A stretch of 64,000 bases of DNA from Owenia fusiformis (lineage: Eukaryota > Annelida > Polychaeta > Sabellida > Oweniidae), in the NCBI GenBank assembly GCA_903813345.2, contig CAIIXF020000006.1, positions 28,029,936-28,093,935 on the forward strand. The letters are read 5' to 3'. A program made the translations under genes and the position numbers. This document shows, in pieces, positions 1-9,026 of this stretch. Numbering within the stretch: position 1 is the first letter of the stretch; the number at the start of each line of letters is the position of its first letter. The notes beneath the pieces are model-generated. The model was not told the DNA's origin, made no database searches, and saw only the letters and a list, made by a program, of their open reading frames with translations.

Positions 1-461
1 GAACAAAAAACCAAGCTGTAAAGGTAAACAAGACTTTAGATACATTATGGTCATTGTATTACACTCAGTACTGTAAAATCGGTGACATGGCACAGTTGGC
101 ACCTGTATAATTTTTGCTTAAGAACCTAATAAGTGTGAGACTCTAAAGTCTACATAAATCTTTTTCTCTATTTGAGTGATTTCCTTTTTTATTTCTTTTT
201 CAAAAAACGTGAATATCTGAGTGAAAATCCCATGCAAATCTTACATACCATTTTTTAAGGTATTTAACGTGAGACAATCCTTGGTCAGAATAAGTTCTGA
301 ATTCTAGTATGCAGTAACGAATCAGCTTGTCTGAACATAAAGTGCAATTTACACCATCAACAGACTTGATATAAAGCTACACTTACCAATAAATATTTAC
401 GTTGGAACAAGTACTCACCTCGTAGTTGCTTAATATTTTATTTATCATTGTCTTCCTTTAG

Positions 462-3400
462 GATCGGGCGTTACAAAATGTAATGAGGGTACTAATGGCA
501 TTCAAGACGAGTGAGGTGGCCGGTGCTGTCAAATCTTTAGATGACCCCACAATTGATGTACTCATGAAATATATATACAGAGGCTTTGAAATTCCATCAG
601 ATAACAGTAGCGCAGTTCTCCTAGCTTGGCACGAAAAGGTAAAGTATGATTTTAAGACTACAGTAAAACCTGAAAAGTGGAACACCTCTGAAAGTGGAAC
701 ACCTCCATTAGTAGAACACTTCTCAAAACACCGTTACCCATTCGTTTAAGGTAAAATGAACCTCTGTAAATGACACACCTTCAAAGTGGAACGCTATTTT
801 GATGAATTAAGGCAGGCCCCACTTGTACAGGATTTACTATACCTTATATGATGTTTTATATAATCAAAATGATGATGCTTTCTTTGAAGTGTTCACATTT
901 GATATGTTGGAGGTTTGCTGAATTGAAACATAGTTGAAATCAAGGTCAAACTGAAGGTCAACTTAAGGTCATGTGTTATAAGTCACTATGCAGCAAGAAA
1001 GAGAGTACTTCTTACTATAAAGCATGGTGGTCTGTCTTTCATTCTGTCTGTGTGTCTGTCTGGATATCTCCTCCTAGACAATTTAACCTTGGGGCCTCAT
1101 ACTAAGTCAACATACTAAATGGGTTGGTGGGCATTCTACGAATGTCAGAGATCAAGGTCATTCCAAGATAAAAGTTTAATATCCAGGTATTTGGCTTTAT
1201 AAGACCCTTGGTCTGTGCTGTTCCCCTTGATGACCCATGATAAGTGACATAAGATCAAGGTCAACTTTACGGATCAATGTTGTTCCAAGGTCAAAAGTCA
1301 ATATCTTGGTATTTGGCGTTTTAATCCATTTGGGGCCTGTTGTGACCCTTAGATTACCTGAGTTCAGTGTAGAGAAAAACTTTGAAATGATGGAGGTTTT
1401 GTTATAAATATACAATTAGGGTGAACCAAGTCTCGTATGAATTAATTAATAAATACTAATTTGCTATAATCAATGTATTAGTTATTGTATGTATTTCATA
1501 CAAACTGCACATACATGTACTATATATATTGCATATATCAAATGCTAACTGTACATAACATCTAAGTAAATATTGCATGCTGCACATAACAACATATATA
1601 TTGTTTACAATAAGTCACATATTAAGTGATATAAGCAAGTTAAACTGTTAAAATAATTACTAAAATCATGCATTTAATACATTGTGTTACTATTATAGAA
1701 TAATTAATTTGAGATTCCTAAGGAATCTTAGTCTTATAAATGAAGCATAAATATGGCATACAATATGTACTAACTGTACATAGTGTACACCGACAACTGT
1801 ACACACCTACATGTGCACATATTTTTTTTACTTAAATTGTGCCATAAAATAGATATTTAGAAAGAATTATTGAAAGTATGTGTATTGTTGAGAACATAAA
1901 TTAAAATGTGCTATATTTTGAAGTAACACTGTAAAATATAATGCTTAAAACTAATTTTGTGACACAAAAGTAAGTATTATACTTATTGGAAAGCAGTTTA
2001 TAATGCATTTTATCTTTTAATTATATGTTAAAAAGTTGTGTGATGCACACTACAATAGTAAGGTTCAGTCCACTAACTGTGGAGATGTTGGATTGAGATA
2101 TGTGTCCACTTAGAGCAAGGCTTCTCGGTGTCTTTTAAACTCTGCGTGGATGTAGTCCATAACAGTTGCGCTATCCCTGAGGATGAGATAGTCCCGATTG
2201 TATCTCTCAGCATAGTTGTGAGAGTAGGGGAAGGCATATTTCTTGGCACCCTCCATTGTGACATCACTAGGGTGTGTGATACCATGTGATGTCACAGTAC
2301 AGCACACTTCCATGGAAAGCTTGTGAAGCCCTGTGTCTTGAAGGTATACCTTGATTTGACTTGCCATTTCAAGACTCATTGTGTCCACTGAAGCTTGGAG
2401 GTCATGTTCTTGGCGCAATTGTTCAACGAATGATGATACAAGTTGGATATCGCCATAAGCTCGTTTAAGGGAAATGCTGACCTATAAAAAAAGTTTATTT
2501 TTAAAATTGAAAATTTAGCATTGAAAACAAACATTTGTCAAACTAAAGAAATTCTGAAGTTTTTTATTGCTGAAAAATTATATTTATTTGAATAACCTAT
2601 ACTTACATCATTTGTGGGAAGGGATGGGAGAGTGGGAAACTCGCCAAATGCAGGATAAGAGTACTTGTCAAGTTCTTCCTTGTCACTGTTTGCGATCAGA
2701 CCCTTTCCCAACTGAAACAAAAGAGACTATGTTTACCAAAAAAAGTGCAATATTTTGATTTGTCATAATTAAACATCTGGTCATTAGATAATTTAAAAAT
2801 AAATGGGAAGTTAATATGTGACAAATACTAAACAATGTGTCATCATTATGTCATTTAGAGTAATTTGTGACACATACTTAACAATGTGTCATCATTATTT
2901 CATTTAGAGTAAATTGTGACACATACTAAACAATGTGTCATCAATATGTCATTTAGAGGTTTCGCTTGGTAAATGATTCACTGTATGTATTACTACTCAC
3001 TTTTATATGAATCTCACTATGGACTATGCACTAGATTTAAAACACTTCAAATATCAAAAAAATATTTCTGTACTTACATATAAGTCATTGATGACAGTTG
3101 TCAGGTTTGTCTTTATATTTTGAGCTAAGGCGCTAATCACATGATATTCATGGGCACGATCTGATGGAGAGGGAGTGACCCCTTCCCATCCATCTCCTCC
3201 AGACCCTCCTTGGCAGTTTATGCATGCCACTGGCTTCTGCCAAGGGTACGCTGGGGATACTGTCGTTGTTGGTGCAGATCTGGCATATCCCACCATCATA
3301 CAGACACAAACTGAAAATTAAATATGTTCAAGTTTGAGTGACCAATGATTTAATTTTTAGCATCGGGTAGTACCATATCATCACATTTTTGTATGTCAAA

Positions 3401-6221
3401 AAATGTTGAAAATACATTGAAGAGTTTGATTTCATATAATTCCAGATTTCATCATATACTCCATCATCTGTTATTTGTTGGACATGTTTTCTATTGGTAT
3501 GATCTTAATAGAAATTCCAATGCAAACATTTTGGTTCATTGTTAAAAAGTTAAGATTCATATTGATTCATATTGATATCTGATATCAAAAATATATTTAT
3601 GGATGGATTAACACACTTTCAGACTTCAGTTTCATCATAGATTTTTTGTGTGATAATTTCTAGGAATTCTAATGTATTTAACTAGAAATCAGGATGCATC
3701 TAATTTTAATTCATTGTTAAAACCCCTTAAAGTAATTATCATTCTTTAGGTGTTATATTTGTCATACATGTATATTCAATATATTTTTCATCAAACAGTT
3801 ATACTTTATTTAAAAAAAAATTGGCTGAAATGAGTCATTGTCCATCCACCAAAATATAATCTCTCCAATTTTAAACAATATGAAAAGAATCGATTTCGTT
3901 TTTTATGGCAAAGTATCGAATATGACCCGTGACTTCATTCTTTTGTGAATACAAATTGATTCAAAAATAGTTCACTCCATAATGGCATTGAAAAGTAAAT
4001 AATAATCAATGCAAACTTTGAGTTCATTCAGGACTTACGTTCTTTCATTTAGCATTGTATCGCAAATATAAAAAATTCAACACACATTGAAAAGTAGAAT
4101 CCTTTTGTGAAATATTAAAAATCATAATTGGCTGTTGTATGCTTTTTGTAATTAATAAAATAATTTAAAGGTTTGAAAATAAAAATTAAATCTCATGTTA
4201 TTATAAAAATATTTTTACCGAGTATGAATTTCATGTCCATTTTCTTTTTAACTTCTTGATCAACCTTGCGTTTGTAGCAAATATTCCAACTTAATGTTTC
4301 TAGCTGCCTTTTCCTTTGTGGATGAGTTTAATAAATTGTTGATGGATGGGTAGGGGTTTGGATCTCATATTTATATACATTAGACTGAAACCAATTCTGA
4401 ATCTTAATGAACAGTTCTATTTTAAGATATTAGTGAATATAGTTGAATTTCTGAAACCACACCTTGAATGAATATGTATTATCTATGTACAGGGTGTCCC
4501 GAAAGTATGATTTGCCGAAATTGAAGTTCACTTTACACCAAATTAAAAGTCAGTGTGTCCTCTCTGGCCATGTTAACAGTAGCAATTCTTTTAGGATATG
4601 ACCTTAAAAGAGCCTCACATAGGGGTGTGACATTTTGTAATCCTCTTAAAACCTTTTTTAAGACATTTAAGAAGAGTTTCCTTGCAGTATCTGCCCTCAA
4701 CGTCTTCTTTTCTCAACTCAATATATATCCTATCATGGACGACAGCAAGCAAATTTTCAGTAATATTCAGGTCAAAACAGACAAAAATTGATACTTAATT
4801 GAGTGATGCATCTTTTTGATGGGGTCATCCTAAGGTCATAGTATTTAGCTTATTAATGTACCTTTAAATATTCTTCAAAGTGGTGGTTAGCAATGAGCCA
4901 CACCTACTGTGGGTATATCTGCCAAGAGGGGGGGGGGGGGGGGGTCCCATACTTAACTTTCTGGACACTTTGTATTTAAGGAAGTAATAGATATTGTATG
5001 ATAAATCTTAATACTGTCATACTTTCAGGACACTTTTTATTTAAGGAAGTAATAGATATTGTATGATAAATCTTAATACTGTTACATTTTATCACTCAAT
5101 TGCCATCACATAAAGGTAAACTACAGTTATTCGAGAATTCATATCGTCTTCTAAGAATTTTGATTTCACTTATGAAAAAATGGGGAAAAATGTTGATGTT
5201 TATAATCAGATTACTATGCTGTGGTTATTATTACTGGTAGATATAGTAAAGGTGTATAGGCCAATAGATATACCTTTATGTATTTTTACCTTACAGTGAA
5301 ACCTGTATATTCCAACACCTCTCTAATCCGAACACCTCTCAATATGAACACTTTTTTCTTAGTCCCATAATTGTTACCTCCCATTGACTGACATGTTAAT
5401 AAAACTTGAGATGTGAACACCTGCTAATCTGAACACTTTTTGTTGCTCCCAGAGGCGTTTGAATAAGACAGGTTTTACTGTATGTAAAAAAGGTACGATA
5501 TTGTCGTCAGCTTGGCTTAGGTTATAATTGATGTAAAGTAAACCTGTCGTGACAGATTTGGCAAAAAATCATGCGAAAAGTGCTCAGAATGGTGAAAAAC
5601 TGCATGATTTTGAAAGAATTTCTGGCCGCCAGGGGGAGGCGCAGCATGTTTATTAATTTGAGTTGTAGAAACTGAGGTTGCAGTCATTAGTCATTAAGTT
5701 TCCAGTGTTTGAAATTATCATAAAGTAATTTTCTTGTGAGGGTACGGTTATCAGGATTGAGATCAACATTGTTATCTCAATTAACGTCAAACTTAAAGGT
5801 GAAGGTCATTGTGGTGATAACGACCAGGTAGGCTGTTAAAAAATTGTCACTTTGACAATGAGTAATATTATACTAAGTGATGGTGTCCACTTATAAACAG
5901 CTGTGGATTATGAAATTAATTTGGTTATGGTTTCCTCCACCCCCACCCCTCATCTAACGAAATTTTAAATGTTGATTTGTCACTTTTTCACTTGAATTTT
6001 AAAAAAATCAGCACTATGAGCTCAGGATACCATCCTTTACCCCTCCCCCCATAGTTAAATTAAACTAATTTCGTTATTCCACAACTGTTGATAATTTGAC
6101 AACATTCCAGAGCTTTGACTTCAATAATTATTATTTCCATTTTAATTATGTTTTTCAGGCATTTGAACAAGGAGGCTTAGGAAGTATAGTACGAACACTT
6201 ACTGATAGAAAAAGGGTGTAA
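462..6221 (+). CDS. ARPC5: Actin-related protein 2/3 complex subunit 5 (p16-ARC), last two coding exons
   Basis: ARPC5 is the smallest subunit of the seven-protein Arp2/3 complex, which nucleates branched actin filaments in the cytoplasm. Two coding exons are visible: 462-638 (59 codons, acceptor AG at 460-461, donor GT at 639) and 6159-6221 (20 codons plus TAA). Joined in phase 0 they give the conserved C-terminal half: an alpha-helical stretch with MAFKTSEV, then [11 protein letters not shown]-type residues and [11 protein letters not shown], and the terminal block [16 protein letters not shown] that ends the family. Earlier exons lie left of the window. The 5.5-kb intron carries an antisense gene (2110-4240) and several small transposons. 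AATAAA polyadenylation candidates lie at 6953 and 7218; a MITE sits in or just beyond the 3' UTR. Family assignment is near certain. Confidence 0.95.
659..841. mobile_element. pogo/Tigger-like MITE remnant in ARPC5 intron
   Basis: The sequence starts with ACAGTAAAACCTG and ends with a diverged CAGGATTTACTATA. Between them are repeated GGAACACCTC-type motifs like those in the copies near 5.3, 22.6, 35.5 and 43.4 kb. It begins only 20 bases after an ARPC5 splice donor. Confidence 0.5.
950..1430. repeat. AAGGTCA-rich degenerate repeat in ARPC5 intron
   Basis: The stretch has many AAGGTCA/CAAGGTCA words and a short pyrimidine-rich CTGTCTGTSTGTCTG tract. It looks like a decayed interspersed repeat. 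No coding potential was seen. Confidence 0.35.
2110..4240 (-). CDS. Small secreted four-helix protein, candidate IL-6/CNTF-type cytokine, nested antisense in the ARPC5 intron
   Basis: Four exons on the minus strand join in consistent phase: 4240-4219 (MDMKFIL plus one base), 3310-3078, 2711-2607 and 2481-2110, giving 243 aa. Every junction is GT-AG. Residues 1-20 form a signal peptide (hydrophobic core FILVCVCMMV, then YARSA). The mature protein has Cys37, Cys40, Cys180 and Cys181, a long amphipathic helix at about 61-85, a proline-rich loop around 100-118, helices near 124-170, and a C-terminal helix from 210 to the end. The layout of short first exon breaking in phase 1 inside the signal peptide, second exon with helix A, last exon with later helices resembles LIF/CLCF1/CTF1 genes. 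The last helix starts YAER, placed like the FxxK receptor-contact motif of CNTF/CLCF1, and ends in an EFKR-type segment. What is seen: a secreted, helical, four-exon gene. Cytokine identity is inference; any other small secreted helical protein remains possible. Confidence 0.75.
2816..2957. repeat. Three-copy tandem repeat (unit about 46-60 bp)
   Basis: The phrase with GTGACACATACT, AACAATGTGTCATCATTATG and TCATTTAGAGTAA recurs three times in tandem inside intron 2 of the nested cytokine-like gene. Confidence 0.7.
4488..4974. mobile_element. mariner-like non-autonomous element
   Basis: The left end TACAGGGTGTCCCGAAAGTA matches the inverted right end (read on the minus strand TACAAAGTGTCCAGAAAGT...). 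TA borders both ends, as for Tc1/mariner targets. The interior has no transposase. It lies about 250 bp upstream of the nested gene's start codon. The right end is part of a 64-bp tandem duplication that extends to about 5080. Confidence 0.6.
4956..5080. repeat. 64-bp tandem duplication
   Basis: Two near-identical units contain GGACACTTT, TATTTAAGGAAGTAATAG and GATAAATCTTAATACTG. The duplication includes the mariner-like right terminus. Confidence 0.8.
5292..5482. mobile_element. pogo/Tigger-like MITE
   Basis: TA plus CAGTGAAACCTG at the left and CAGGTTTTACTG plus TA at the right form an inverted pair. The interior has CTAATCCGAACACCTCTC-type motifs. This is the clearest copy of a family seen at least four times in the window. 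Confidence 0.75.
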
Positions 6222-6618
6222 CTATGACAACCGATGGCGTAGATATTGAACAACCCCTACTAAACAAAACCATCTCTCACATTGCACCGACTTGGATTAT
6301 TTAACACTTAGTGCTATGTTTTGATGGCAATACTACATACTTTCCGTTGCAATATTCCAAGTGGATCCCTACGAGGAACTGAGTTGTAGAAAGTGAACTC
6401 CTATAATATATAACCGAAATGAGGAAATGAAAGATAGTTTTTATGATACAAGATAAAAACCCAAGCAGGTATTGTCAGGTGATTAATTAAAGCATGATAT
6501 ATGAAGGATATATGAAGCACAAACCCGATACTAAAAAATCAACACCAGCTTCAACAAGTTTCAGAGTTGGAGCATTTTCATGGCACTATTTTAACAGTTT
6601 ATTCTCACACTTGCCATC

Positions 6619-6931
6619 TACTGTACTCCCGGATTATTTCGCAAGTTTTAATTTCGCGAATTTTGAGAAACGCCAATTTCGTGGCCATTATATTTCGCGG
6701 ATTTTAAAAGTTTAAATTCCATTATTTTCTGAATTCTCAAGCTCTGTAAATTGATTTACCCTATCTACATTAGCTTCACCTACCCAATGTCATATTTGGA
6801 TAAGATTTACAATTTCTAGATCACCTCAGCCTTTAATTGGGGAAATTCGCGACGATAAATTTTCGCGATTTTAACACAATTGCGAAAAGCGCGAAACTAA
6901 ATCGCACATGAAACATACCGGGAGTACAGTA
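6619..6931. mobile_element. TIR MITE downstream of ARPC5 stop codon
   Basis: Perfect 14-bp inverted ends, TACTGTACTCCCGG and CCGGGAGTACAGTA, enclose about 285 bp rich in TTTCGCG words. It has no coding capacity. The TA at each end fits a TA target. It lies in or just past the ARPC5 3' UTR. Confidence 0.8.
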
Positions 6932-7578
6932 TGTGGTCTTACTAATGTGAAAAATAAATCTAGTAATTATAACAAAGATTTGATTTAAGATCATTGTAGC
7001 ATTATCTGTTTATTTTATCATTCTATAAATGTAAAGTATATGAAGTACAGGCTTACAATATTAAAATCAATATGTTCTTATTCAATCCCTTAGTACAAAT
7101 ATGTCAGTGCAAAAAGTTCAAATTCAAATGTAATTACAAGTAAATTAACTTATGTGTATTGGTCATTGGAATTTAAAATACAATGATATATTTGTGGAAG
7201 ATGTGTTATATAATATAAATAAATCATTTTGTAAATAACTATAGATACATTGTCCAGTTTATTTATTACATTTTAAACACATTAGTTACCAGCAAATAGG
7301 TGGCCATTTTAAAATATTAAACAAAAATTGGATTGGGTATCCTATAAAGAAACTTCCCCTCCCTCCTCAAGCCTCTGAACACAACTCAACCTATGTTACA
7401 GCTATTATAGAAATGAATGATGAAATTCTTACTCTGAACTTAAAATTATCTGTCTAATATTTGATTGAAGATATGGTTGATTTAATGATCCATACACTAG
7501 AAAACCAAGCAATTTTTGTGACAAATTACATCAAGTTCTGATATTTTGGACTTTTATATTGAAAATAATGACATTTGT

Positions 7579-7879
7579 TTAACCTCTTGAATACCCAGAG
7601 TGACGGATATATCCGTCACAAATGAAATAAGACTGGTGCCCAGAGGGACGAGAAAATCCGTCACAAAATTTTTCACAAAAATTGCTCTCATTTGAACAAT
7701 TTTCATCCAATTTACACAAAAATTGTTTTAAAACGTGTAGAAATGATCTCTGCAGTCCAATTTTACTAAGCTGAGCATCTAAAATTGTATAGGTATGTAA
7801 TAAAATGTCAAAAGGTGGCAAAAAATGAAAAATTCTCTGGTTTCATGCCAATTTTAGAGCCTGGGATTCAAGAGGTTAA
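7579..7879. mobile_element. TTAA-flanked MITE, family I (piggyBac-like ends), copy A
   Basis: The element is bounded by TTAA on both sides. Its ends are CCTCTTGAATACCCAG and the inverse CTGGGATTCAAGAGG. One end carries GTGACGGATATATCCGTCAC, a perfect palindrome. Copies recur at 30701-30999 (opposite orientation) and 57141-57383. The TTAA target and CC-starting ends suggest the piggyBac superfamily. It starts immediately downstream of the FKBPL-like stop codon on that gene's strand. Confidence 0.8.
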
Positions 7880-7964
7880 AAATCACAGCTCTGAGTATGA
7901 TACTTATGTGCAACTCTTCATATTTTATCAATTTAACCTATTAGTAAAACATGTTTTTAAGTCC

Positions 7965-8855
7965 TTATTTTTTATCCTCAGATTTCTGGAATTTATTTAT
8001 CTGACTGAGAAGTTTATGCACGCTTTTATTCCCAGGTTCAACTGCCAATATTTGTTCAAAGTCAGATTTTCCATTTTCAAATTGTTTAAGATGATAATAC
8101 GCCTGTCCTCTTCGATACAGTCCCTTCACATTGTGTTCCTCAATTTCTAGAGCTTTTGAGCAATTTTCAATGACATTTTTGTAAAGTCCATGCTTAAACT
8201 GGCAGATGCTTAAATTCAGATAACACGCACAAAGGAGAGAAGAAAACTCCTGGTATATCAAAGTTGGAATGTTGAATTTTGTATTTGTGTCTTTTTCCTT
8301 GGACATGATACAGTTTCCATTTTCAAGTACAGCCACTTCATTTGTTTTCATATTTTTCATAATAATCAGATACTTTAAAGCCTGGGAATAGTGACAAGAA
8401 GCGATTTTAGTTCGTCCAAGGTTATAAGCATCTGTTCCGAGTTGTTTATGATGCTTTGCACGCTCAAATCGTTCAGATATATCCAATTCATGAATCTCGT
8501 TGGCATTTGTAAACTCAAGTAAGCTAATGTGTAAAATCAAAGGATTCATTACTTTTTCTAGTTTTAATGTGATTTTAATTTCACTGCCTTGCGTCATTAA
8601 AGTCACACTCTTATGTATCACATGTTCTACCTCACTTGTATAGCAATCAATCACAATTTTGTTTAATTCCAATAAACCCTTGAGAGATTCATAGATTGTG
8701 TCTTCAGTAAAATTATCTAAATCTGTACATGTGATTTCGATGTCACATTTTGCAAATGTGTTTGGAGATGAAATTCCATTGGTTGATGATGTTATCTCAG
8801 TGGCATAACTTGCAACGTTGAGATTGCCGTAAGATTTATTGCCCTCCAAAGACAT
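7965..8855 (-). CDS. FKBPL: FKBPL-like TPR protein (FKBP-like co-chaperone)
   Basis: A single coding exon gives 296 aa. The N-terminal half (about 35-120) looks like a degenerate FKBP-type fold, with ...QGSEIKITLKL near residue 90 and LHISLLEF at its end. An acidic/charged linker (DISERFERAKHHKQLG) leads into a three-repeat TPR domain (about 135-285) with LNLSICQFKHGLY, ENCSKALEIEEHNVKGLYRR and GQAYYHLKQFENGKSDFEQI. This layout is that of FKBPL (WISp39), an Hsp90-binding co-chaperone without peptidyl-prolyl isomerase activity; orthology is inferred from the linker and TPR pattern. The ATG at 8855 is the first codon after an acceptor (AG at 8872-8873, exon from 8871), so a 5' non-coding exon is expected; a good minus-strand donor (GAG-GTAAGTAG) lies at 11964, beside the golgin-97 promoter. 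Other FKBP-TPR proteins are the alternative. Confidence 0.75.
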   Translation of the reverse strand: MSLEGNKSYGNLNVASYATEITSSTNGISSPNTFAKCDIEITCTDLDNFTEDTIYESLKGLLELNKIVIDCYTSEVEHVIHKSVTLMTQGSEIKITLKLEKVMNPLILHISLLEFTNANEIHELDISERFERAKHHKQLGTDAYNLGRTKIASCHYSQALKYLIIMKNMKTNEVAVLENGNCIMSKEKDTNTKFNIPTLIYQEFSSLLCACYLNLSICQFKHGLYKNVIENCSKALEIEEHNVKGLYRRGQAYYHLKQFENGKSDFEQILAVEPGNKSVHKLLSQINKFQKSEDKK

Positions 8856-9026
8856 TGTAATAGTTCATCAACTGAAAAAAAATAAAGAAAGTATATGTAC
8901 ATGTTGCAAAATGATTACCAAAATGTTTGACATTCAGCCATATCACCGTGTATTTCATAAAATGAAAAGTAATATTTCCTATACATGTAGGTTTTGATAT
9001 ATCGACACCCCCCCCCCCCCCCCCCC

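Follow-up and report, generated by a model that had tools for sequence, protein, structure and literature searches.

What does the gene that runs antisense inside ARPC5 of the annelid Owenia fusiformis encode, and is it a cytokine? The window examined here is a stretch of 64,000 nucleotides (C6:28029936-28093935), and a preliminary description of its letters had proposed an IL-6/CNTF-type ligand. In the available part of one survey, IL6R-type receptors reach as far back as Mollusca and both JAK and STAT as far as sponges, and IL-6 family ligands are given for vertebrates only (PMC13203501). According to an excerpt of a second survey, IL-6 superfamily members have not been located in invertebrates (PMC8226699). 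The same portions of the two texts mention Unpaired, a lectin ligand of a crustacean and, for a starfish, an IL-6-like report (PMC13203501, PMC8226699). Among the matches listed in our literature search, which had preprints and most subscription journals outside its scope, none named a ligand family of this kind from a lophotrochozoan. The features of the window gene and its host are as follows.

462..638, plus strand: penultimate exon of the host gene ARPC5, borders set by eye
2110..2481, minus strand: exon 4, which holds the last three predicted helices (B, C and D), the CC pair in helix C, R-x6-I-L-R-D and the stop codon (2110-2112)
2607..2711, minus strand: exon 3, in phase 0 on either side; its 35 codons encode the predicted A-B loop, including [14 protein letters not shown]
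3078..3310, minus strand: exon 2, which completes the putative signal peptide and carries PWQKP and CINC in the N-tail, followed by predicted helix A, ending in phase 0
4219..4240, minus strand: exon 1, a 22-nt piece from the start codon into the putative signal peptide, ending in phase 1
6159..6221, plus strand: last exon of ARPC5, borders set by eye

Joined, the four minus-strand exons (4240-4219, 3310-3078, 2711-2607 and 2481-2110, the last with the stop codon) give an open reading frame of 243 aa, and all three introns are GT..AG, in phases 1, 0 and 0. At the N-terminus, [21 protein letters not shown], the first 19 residues resemble a signal peptide by eye. The host was identified from the joined ARPC5 exons (462-638 and 6159-6221), which match P16-Arc in Pfam at E 2.2e-29; the last ARPC5 intron (639-6158, splice sites by eye) contains the window gene in antisense orientation. 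The four-exon, secreted-looking gene nested in ARPC5 that had been described from the letters is thereby confirmed. Exon 1, the smallest part of the model, is backed by a nucleotide match of window positions 4208-4248 to the C7 locus, at the candidate start MDIKFIL.

To place this gene among its relatives, we searched the genome (498 Mb, 525 contigs) with the window protein. Exon-by-exon matches were found at C5:21.71 Mb (C5a; 82% over exon 4), C7:16.23 (58%), C5:25.66 (C5b; 40%) and C1:60.63 (32%), with weak ones at C3:9.92 (E 2.43) and C11:17.96 (E 9.89). When the C3 exon was used as the query, C11 was found at E 5.9e-13 together with an extra copy at C5:26.09 (C5c; 72%), and the window gene was reached only at E 0.353; the C1 exon found C7, C5:25.66, C6 and C5:21.71, and not the C3 group. 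By these comparisons the genome contains eight paralogues, named C6 (the window gene), C5a, C7, C5b, C1, C3, C5c and C11. Seven of the eight were assembled over the mature protein. An exon 2 was looked for at the C1 locus and not found there, and C1 is left out of all seven-member counts.

The assembled members fall into a C6-like subfamily of four (C6, C5a, C7 and C5b) and a C3-like subfamily of three (C3, C5c and C11; loci L009, L014 and L016), the latter with an N-tail signature TW[QND]NPCGDG and a single cysteine pair. Aligned with hhalign, the two groups match at a probability of 97.4 (E 1.1e-11; reversed control 0.6), with 67.9 for exons 2-3 alone and 92.5 for exon 4 alone. Because seven further loci carry relatives of the last exon, and because two diverged subfamilies are homologous over their length, the predicted gene is real and more than a chance open reading frame. 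Conservation across the paralogues likewise backs the predicted splice model. At the nucleotide level, window positions 1-9000 match the C5a locus at about 84% across most of the gene, exon 1 not being covered, and the dN of 0.083 and dS of 0.173 between C6 and C5a (235 codons) indicate mild constraint. Mature proteins are 210-236 aa long in all seven assembled members (mature starts chosen by eye), in keeping with the single chain of approximately 200 aa of long-chain class I helical cytokines, and hydrophobic N-termini are visible by eye in the paralogues.

The paralogues also share their exon structure. In all seven assembled genes, phase-0 introns follow predicted helix A and precede predicted helix B, enclosing an exon 3 of 34-38 codons, and all eight last exons start in phase 0 at one shared alignment column, directly preceded by an AG. 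The exon 3 of C5b and of C11 was chosen with an eye to similarity among candidates that were required to be in phase 0 at both ends, so that their phases are partly by construction; C11 had two candidates, and the C5b donor reads GTACAG. The opening phase of exon 2 was read in six of the seven and is 1 in every one of them, C6 and, by eye from the acceptors, C5a, C7, C5b, C3 and C5c. Exon 1 itself is clear in C6, with one candidate in C3, three in C7 (one with the nucleotide match), three in C5c, two in C5b, and three in C5a of which none is convincing. As described in the accessible part of one paper, three phase-0 introns between the helices are a mark of four-helical cytokines (PMC12327624). 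Set against that rule, the family has two phase-0 introns between helices (7/7), with no further intron from B to D, and in 6/7 the signal peptide is split by an intron in phase 1. The cytokine-like gene structure that had been proposed is supported by the phase-0 introns, which agree with that rule in part. The tiny first exon ending in phase 1, which had been counted with them, carries little weight: an excess of phase-1 introns is found near the cleavage sites of signal peptides, according to the portion available of the relevant study (PMC1626468).

Conserved residues were concentrated in a few places. Six positions are invariant in the eight last exons (F18, H66, R93, I100, R102 and D103 in exon 4 numbering), and a motif R-x6-I-[LF]-R-D at the last predicted helix is common to all eight. 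A tryptophan in the N-tail is invariant in the seven mature proteins, as WxxP in six of them (C7 has WQKQ). In these seven, cysteines are confined to the N-tail and the end of predicted helix C, in equal numbers: C6, C5a and C7 carry two at the first site and two directly neighbouring ones in helix C, and C5b, C3, C5c and C11 carry one at each site. The last exon of C1 has one cysteine in helix C and another near the start of the exon, and C1 may thus depart from this rule. The equal numbers at both sites argue for disulfides between the N-tail and helix C in the family. In LIF, Cys131 and Cys134 are likewise located at the end of helix C. Within the part of the LIF study consulted, the Cys18-Cys131 pair was detected by mass spectrometry, Cys12-Cys134 was expected and not detected, and a third pair, Cys60-Cys163, was expected (PMC3865251).

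Structure prediction gave models of uneven quality. For exon 4 alone, which lacks helix A and was aligned over eight rows, the best of five AlphaFold models had a pLDDT of 80.8 and a pTM of 0.69 (others 65.2-51.5), with helices at 2-28, 34-49, 52-65, 76-80 and 90-122. The full-length model was of low confidence (pLDDT 53.8, pTM 0.48; helix A mostly below 50), with helices at 37-67, 75-80, 102-129, 135-150 with 153-166, 177-183 and 191-223. Residues 37-67 and 191-223 of that model correspond to 56-86 and 210-242 of the preprotein, in agreement with the long helices predicted earlier at 61-85 and 210-243, most of helix A being below pLDDT 50. Four long helices can be made out, C being broken in two, and the loops between them are of 34, 5 and 24 residues; at this low confidence, the long-short-long order fits an up-up-down-down long-chain class I cytokine.

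Structural neighbours were equally mixed. With Foldseek, the exon-4 model reached a best E of 0.49 and the full-length model one of 0.36. No class I cytokine was among the best 50 Foldseek matches of the exon-4 model; among those of the full-length model, prolactin ranked 11 (E 1.6) and G-CSF 35, 36 and 47. In VIA, the best 50 matches of the exon-4 model were mostly unrelated or designed bundles, with a designed G-CSF-receptor binder at rank 1 (Z 8.2) and G-CSF (1rhg) at rank 40 (Z 5.7). For the full-length model, VIA matched CNTF (8d74) at Z 5.1 over 104 residues at 3.8 A, prolactin at Z 5.0 and G-CSF at Z 4.7, all of them among unrelated bundles, one of which was the top match (Z 6.6). The four long predicted helices and the loop lengths are compatible with the proposed cytokine fold; the full-length model is too weak to decide it, and neither Foldseek nor VIA sets cytokines apart from unrelated bundles.

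A receptor module of the expected kind was found in the same genome. At C1:39.100-39.125 Mb, on the minus strand, lies a cytokine-receptor homology module, of which two joined exons (junction unchecked) exceed the Pfam cut-offs for LIFR_D4 (3.9e-9), EpoR_lig-bind (1.4e-7) and IL6Ra-bind (1.8e-6), with the prolactin receptor (7.1e-7) and gp130 (1.9e-6) as best PDB matches. Downstream on the same strand are a WSEWK stretch with no Pfam match and FN3 domains (5e-9 for two stretches joined, others by eye). No Pfam family matched the stretch taken as D3, the canonical WSxWS was absent from the two receptor-locus stretches scanned, and the C1:39.1 Mb sequence examined yielded neither a transmembrane nor a cytoplasmic part. 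The domain layout at this locus is, we assume, that of gp130, LIFR and Domeless. By these domain matches the genome encodes a gp130/LIFR-like receptor module, a candidate for the gp130/Dome-like receptor that the preliminary description had called for. Searched genome-wide exon by exon, LIFR_D4 exceeded its cut-off only at C1:39.1 Mb (E 0.00234), and IL6Ra-bind gave no match at cut-off, the weak ones including L011 and L012. STAT_bind (2.1e-8) exceeded its cut-off at C1:53.98 and C4:2.84. So did FERM_F1, which we take to be a JAK domain, at C3:12.81 (4.1e-5); a genome search with FERM_F2 found nothing (best E 0.858). A search for the haemocyanin beta-sandwich was likewise empty, which does not prove that the domain is absent.

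Two further observations concern receptor loci. Between the exons at C1:39.1 Mb, frames that by eye resemble endonucleases and reverse transcriptases (L017, about 1732-5069, and L018, about 1353-4390) mark non-LTR retrotransposon sequence. Elsewhere, four Interfer-bind matches were spread over 0.18 Mb at C11:17.02-17.19 Mb, approximately 0.8 Mb from the C11 ligand paralogue, and one match at C7:24.71 Mb was over cut-off. One of the C11 matches exceeded the cut-off together with its frame neighbours, all being weak (E 0.069-0.98). These matches may represent class II-type cytokine receptors.

The best reading of these results is that the window gene and its paralogues encode secreted helical ligands of the genome's class I receptor, which we consider probable; a ligand family is the simplest account of the gene structure, the cysteine pattern and the pathway. 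All eight paralogous proteins would be secreted, and each would fold as a long-chain up-up-down-down four-helix bundle in which the N-tail is linked by one or two disulfides with the end of helix C. Most likely they would act as ligands of the gp130/LIFR/Domeless-like class I receptor, and engagement of this receptor would signal through JAK and STAT. A bolder statement is that the eight genes are the missing ligands of gp130/Domeless-like receptors in an animal that is neither a vertebrate nor, probably, an insect, as a class I expansion that kept phase-0 introns and the LIF-type disulfide. This we hold tentatively, leaning very slightly against it. Confidence in both statements was lowered because the published intron rule applies here only in part and because two exon choices were partly by construction.

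Direct sequence comparison bears on whether the family can be assigned to a known branch of cytokines. No Pfam family (2025 copy) reached its cut-off for the window protein, exon 4 or the family, and PDB searches with the same three gave no significant match. Human CLCF1 alone, searched against the PDB with E up to 10, found itself as the sole cytokine match, and by this yardstick a failed single-sequence search says little. That the genes are true IL-6/CNTF/LIF-subfamily orthologues, sharing a more recent ancestor with those vertebrate ligands than with other class I cytokines, is improbable. Against seven human IL-6-family cytokines (sequences and helix limits entered by hand), the family scored an hhalign probability of 0.1, level with reversed controls of 0.2 and 0.3, whereas each of the seven scored 71-98 against the other six, in controls that reuse an alignment built with the held-out member. 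Among 60 within-segment shuffles, the CNTF and IL-6 scores were reached by three and four, those of the other five cytokines by 24-39, and the summed score, which is not outstanding, by nine. The LIF-like placement of cysteines speaks for such orthology, and so does the position of the best local match, which for four of the seven cytokines lies in the corresponding structural element (the A-B loop of LIF, helix A of CNTF, and helix D of CLCF1 and IL-6; shuffle mean 1.6, with 4/60 shuffles reaching four), a hint only. A counterpart of LIF Cys60-Cys163 is missing, and FxxK, the motif that opens helix D in LIFR users and serves in receptor binding, is not conserved: at YAER, which had been likened to it, the aromatic residue (Y) is present in three of the eight paralogues and the R in all eight. 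An EFKR ending, formerly compared to DFNR, is present in 3/8. The subfamily membership first proposed is accordingly not supported. We are as doubtful of a relationship to the Unpaired ligands of insects, which would make the family a protostome branch of class I cytokines. Unpaired (PF15972) was the first Pfam match of the mature window protein (E 0.15) and the second of the preprotein (E 0.18), and it matched two of the seven family members (best E 0.052); however, the window protein scored 11.8-12.0 bits against a curated cut-off of 27, and the surely unrelated Rad26-like_N did equally well (first for the preprotein at E 0.13; 2/7 members, best 0.082). Across the whole genome, PF15972 found nothing, the best E of 3.77 being elsewhere.

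The remaining alternatives lie outside class I altogether. A secreted helical family unrelated to cytokines, such as a carrier, antimicrobial, reproductive or matrix protein, would agree with the lack of any homology or fold match and with the diversity of the bundles that top the structural comparisons, but under it the gene structure, the matched cysteines of N-tail and helix C, and the co-occurrence of receptor, FERM_F1 and STAT sequences in the genome would have to be put down to coincidence; we judge it unlikely, while taking it seriously. Very much less credible is a class II helical cytokine of the interferon/IL-10 kind. Such cytokines have about six helices, against the four long ones predicted here, and the Interfer-bind receptor matches that would favour this explanation are weak (best E 0.069). 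An interferon-like protein, CgIFNLP, has been reported in oyster, as stated in the part of that paper at hand (PMC9756803), but the fish type I interferon genes described in the available section of another have four phase-0 introns, against phases 1-0-0 here (PMC4929537).

If the eight genes do encode ligands of the gp130/LIFR-like receptor, their likeness to known systems is one of architecture. With LIF, OSM, CNTF and CLCF1 they share a length of approximately 200 aa, predicted long helices, long A-B and C-D loops and, as in vertebrate LIF-type genes, a phase-0 intron after helix A; with LIF they also share cysteines in the N-tail and helix C. Unlike those ligands, they have no detectable sequence homology to them, do not conserve FxxK and have a fold that is predicted only, and unlike LIF, as its structure is generally known, they carry an extra phase-0 intron before helix B and are without the third disulfide. 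Like Upd1-3, they would be expected to use a Domeless-type receptor, and the resemblance in Pfam is faint, 15 bits below the cut-off and no better than that to an unrelated family. Two non-vertebrate proteins can be likened to them by description only. CgIFNLP is a mollusc helical cytokine-like protein, but one which the portion seen of its report describes as similar to class II helical cytokines (PMC9756803). The amphioxus growth-hormone-like protein (GHl) is a type I helical ligand with low identity to its relatives, according to the text available (PMC9010856), but it is of a chordate and of the GH type.

In an animal with the matching kind of receptor, the family may provide a signal that had seemed to be absent. 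If so, such ligands predate the vertebrates and have escaped sequence search. With a ligand family and a receptor candidate in one genome, the origin of cytokine signalling would become directly testable, and profiles of the paralogues can be used to seek orthologues in annotated invertebrate genomes.

The window holds two further features of minor note. By eye, a stretch of approximately 60 bases is directly repeated at about 2816-2957, within intron 2 of the gene, in three imperfect copies, and on the minus strand at 7965-8864 lies an open frame of 299 aa, the C-terminal half of which resembles tetratricopeptide repeats by eye.
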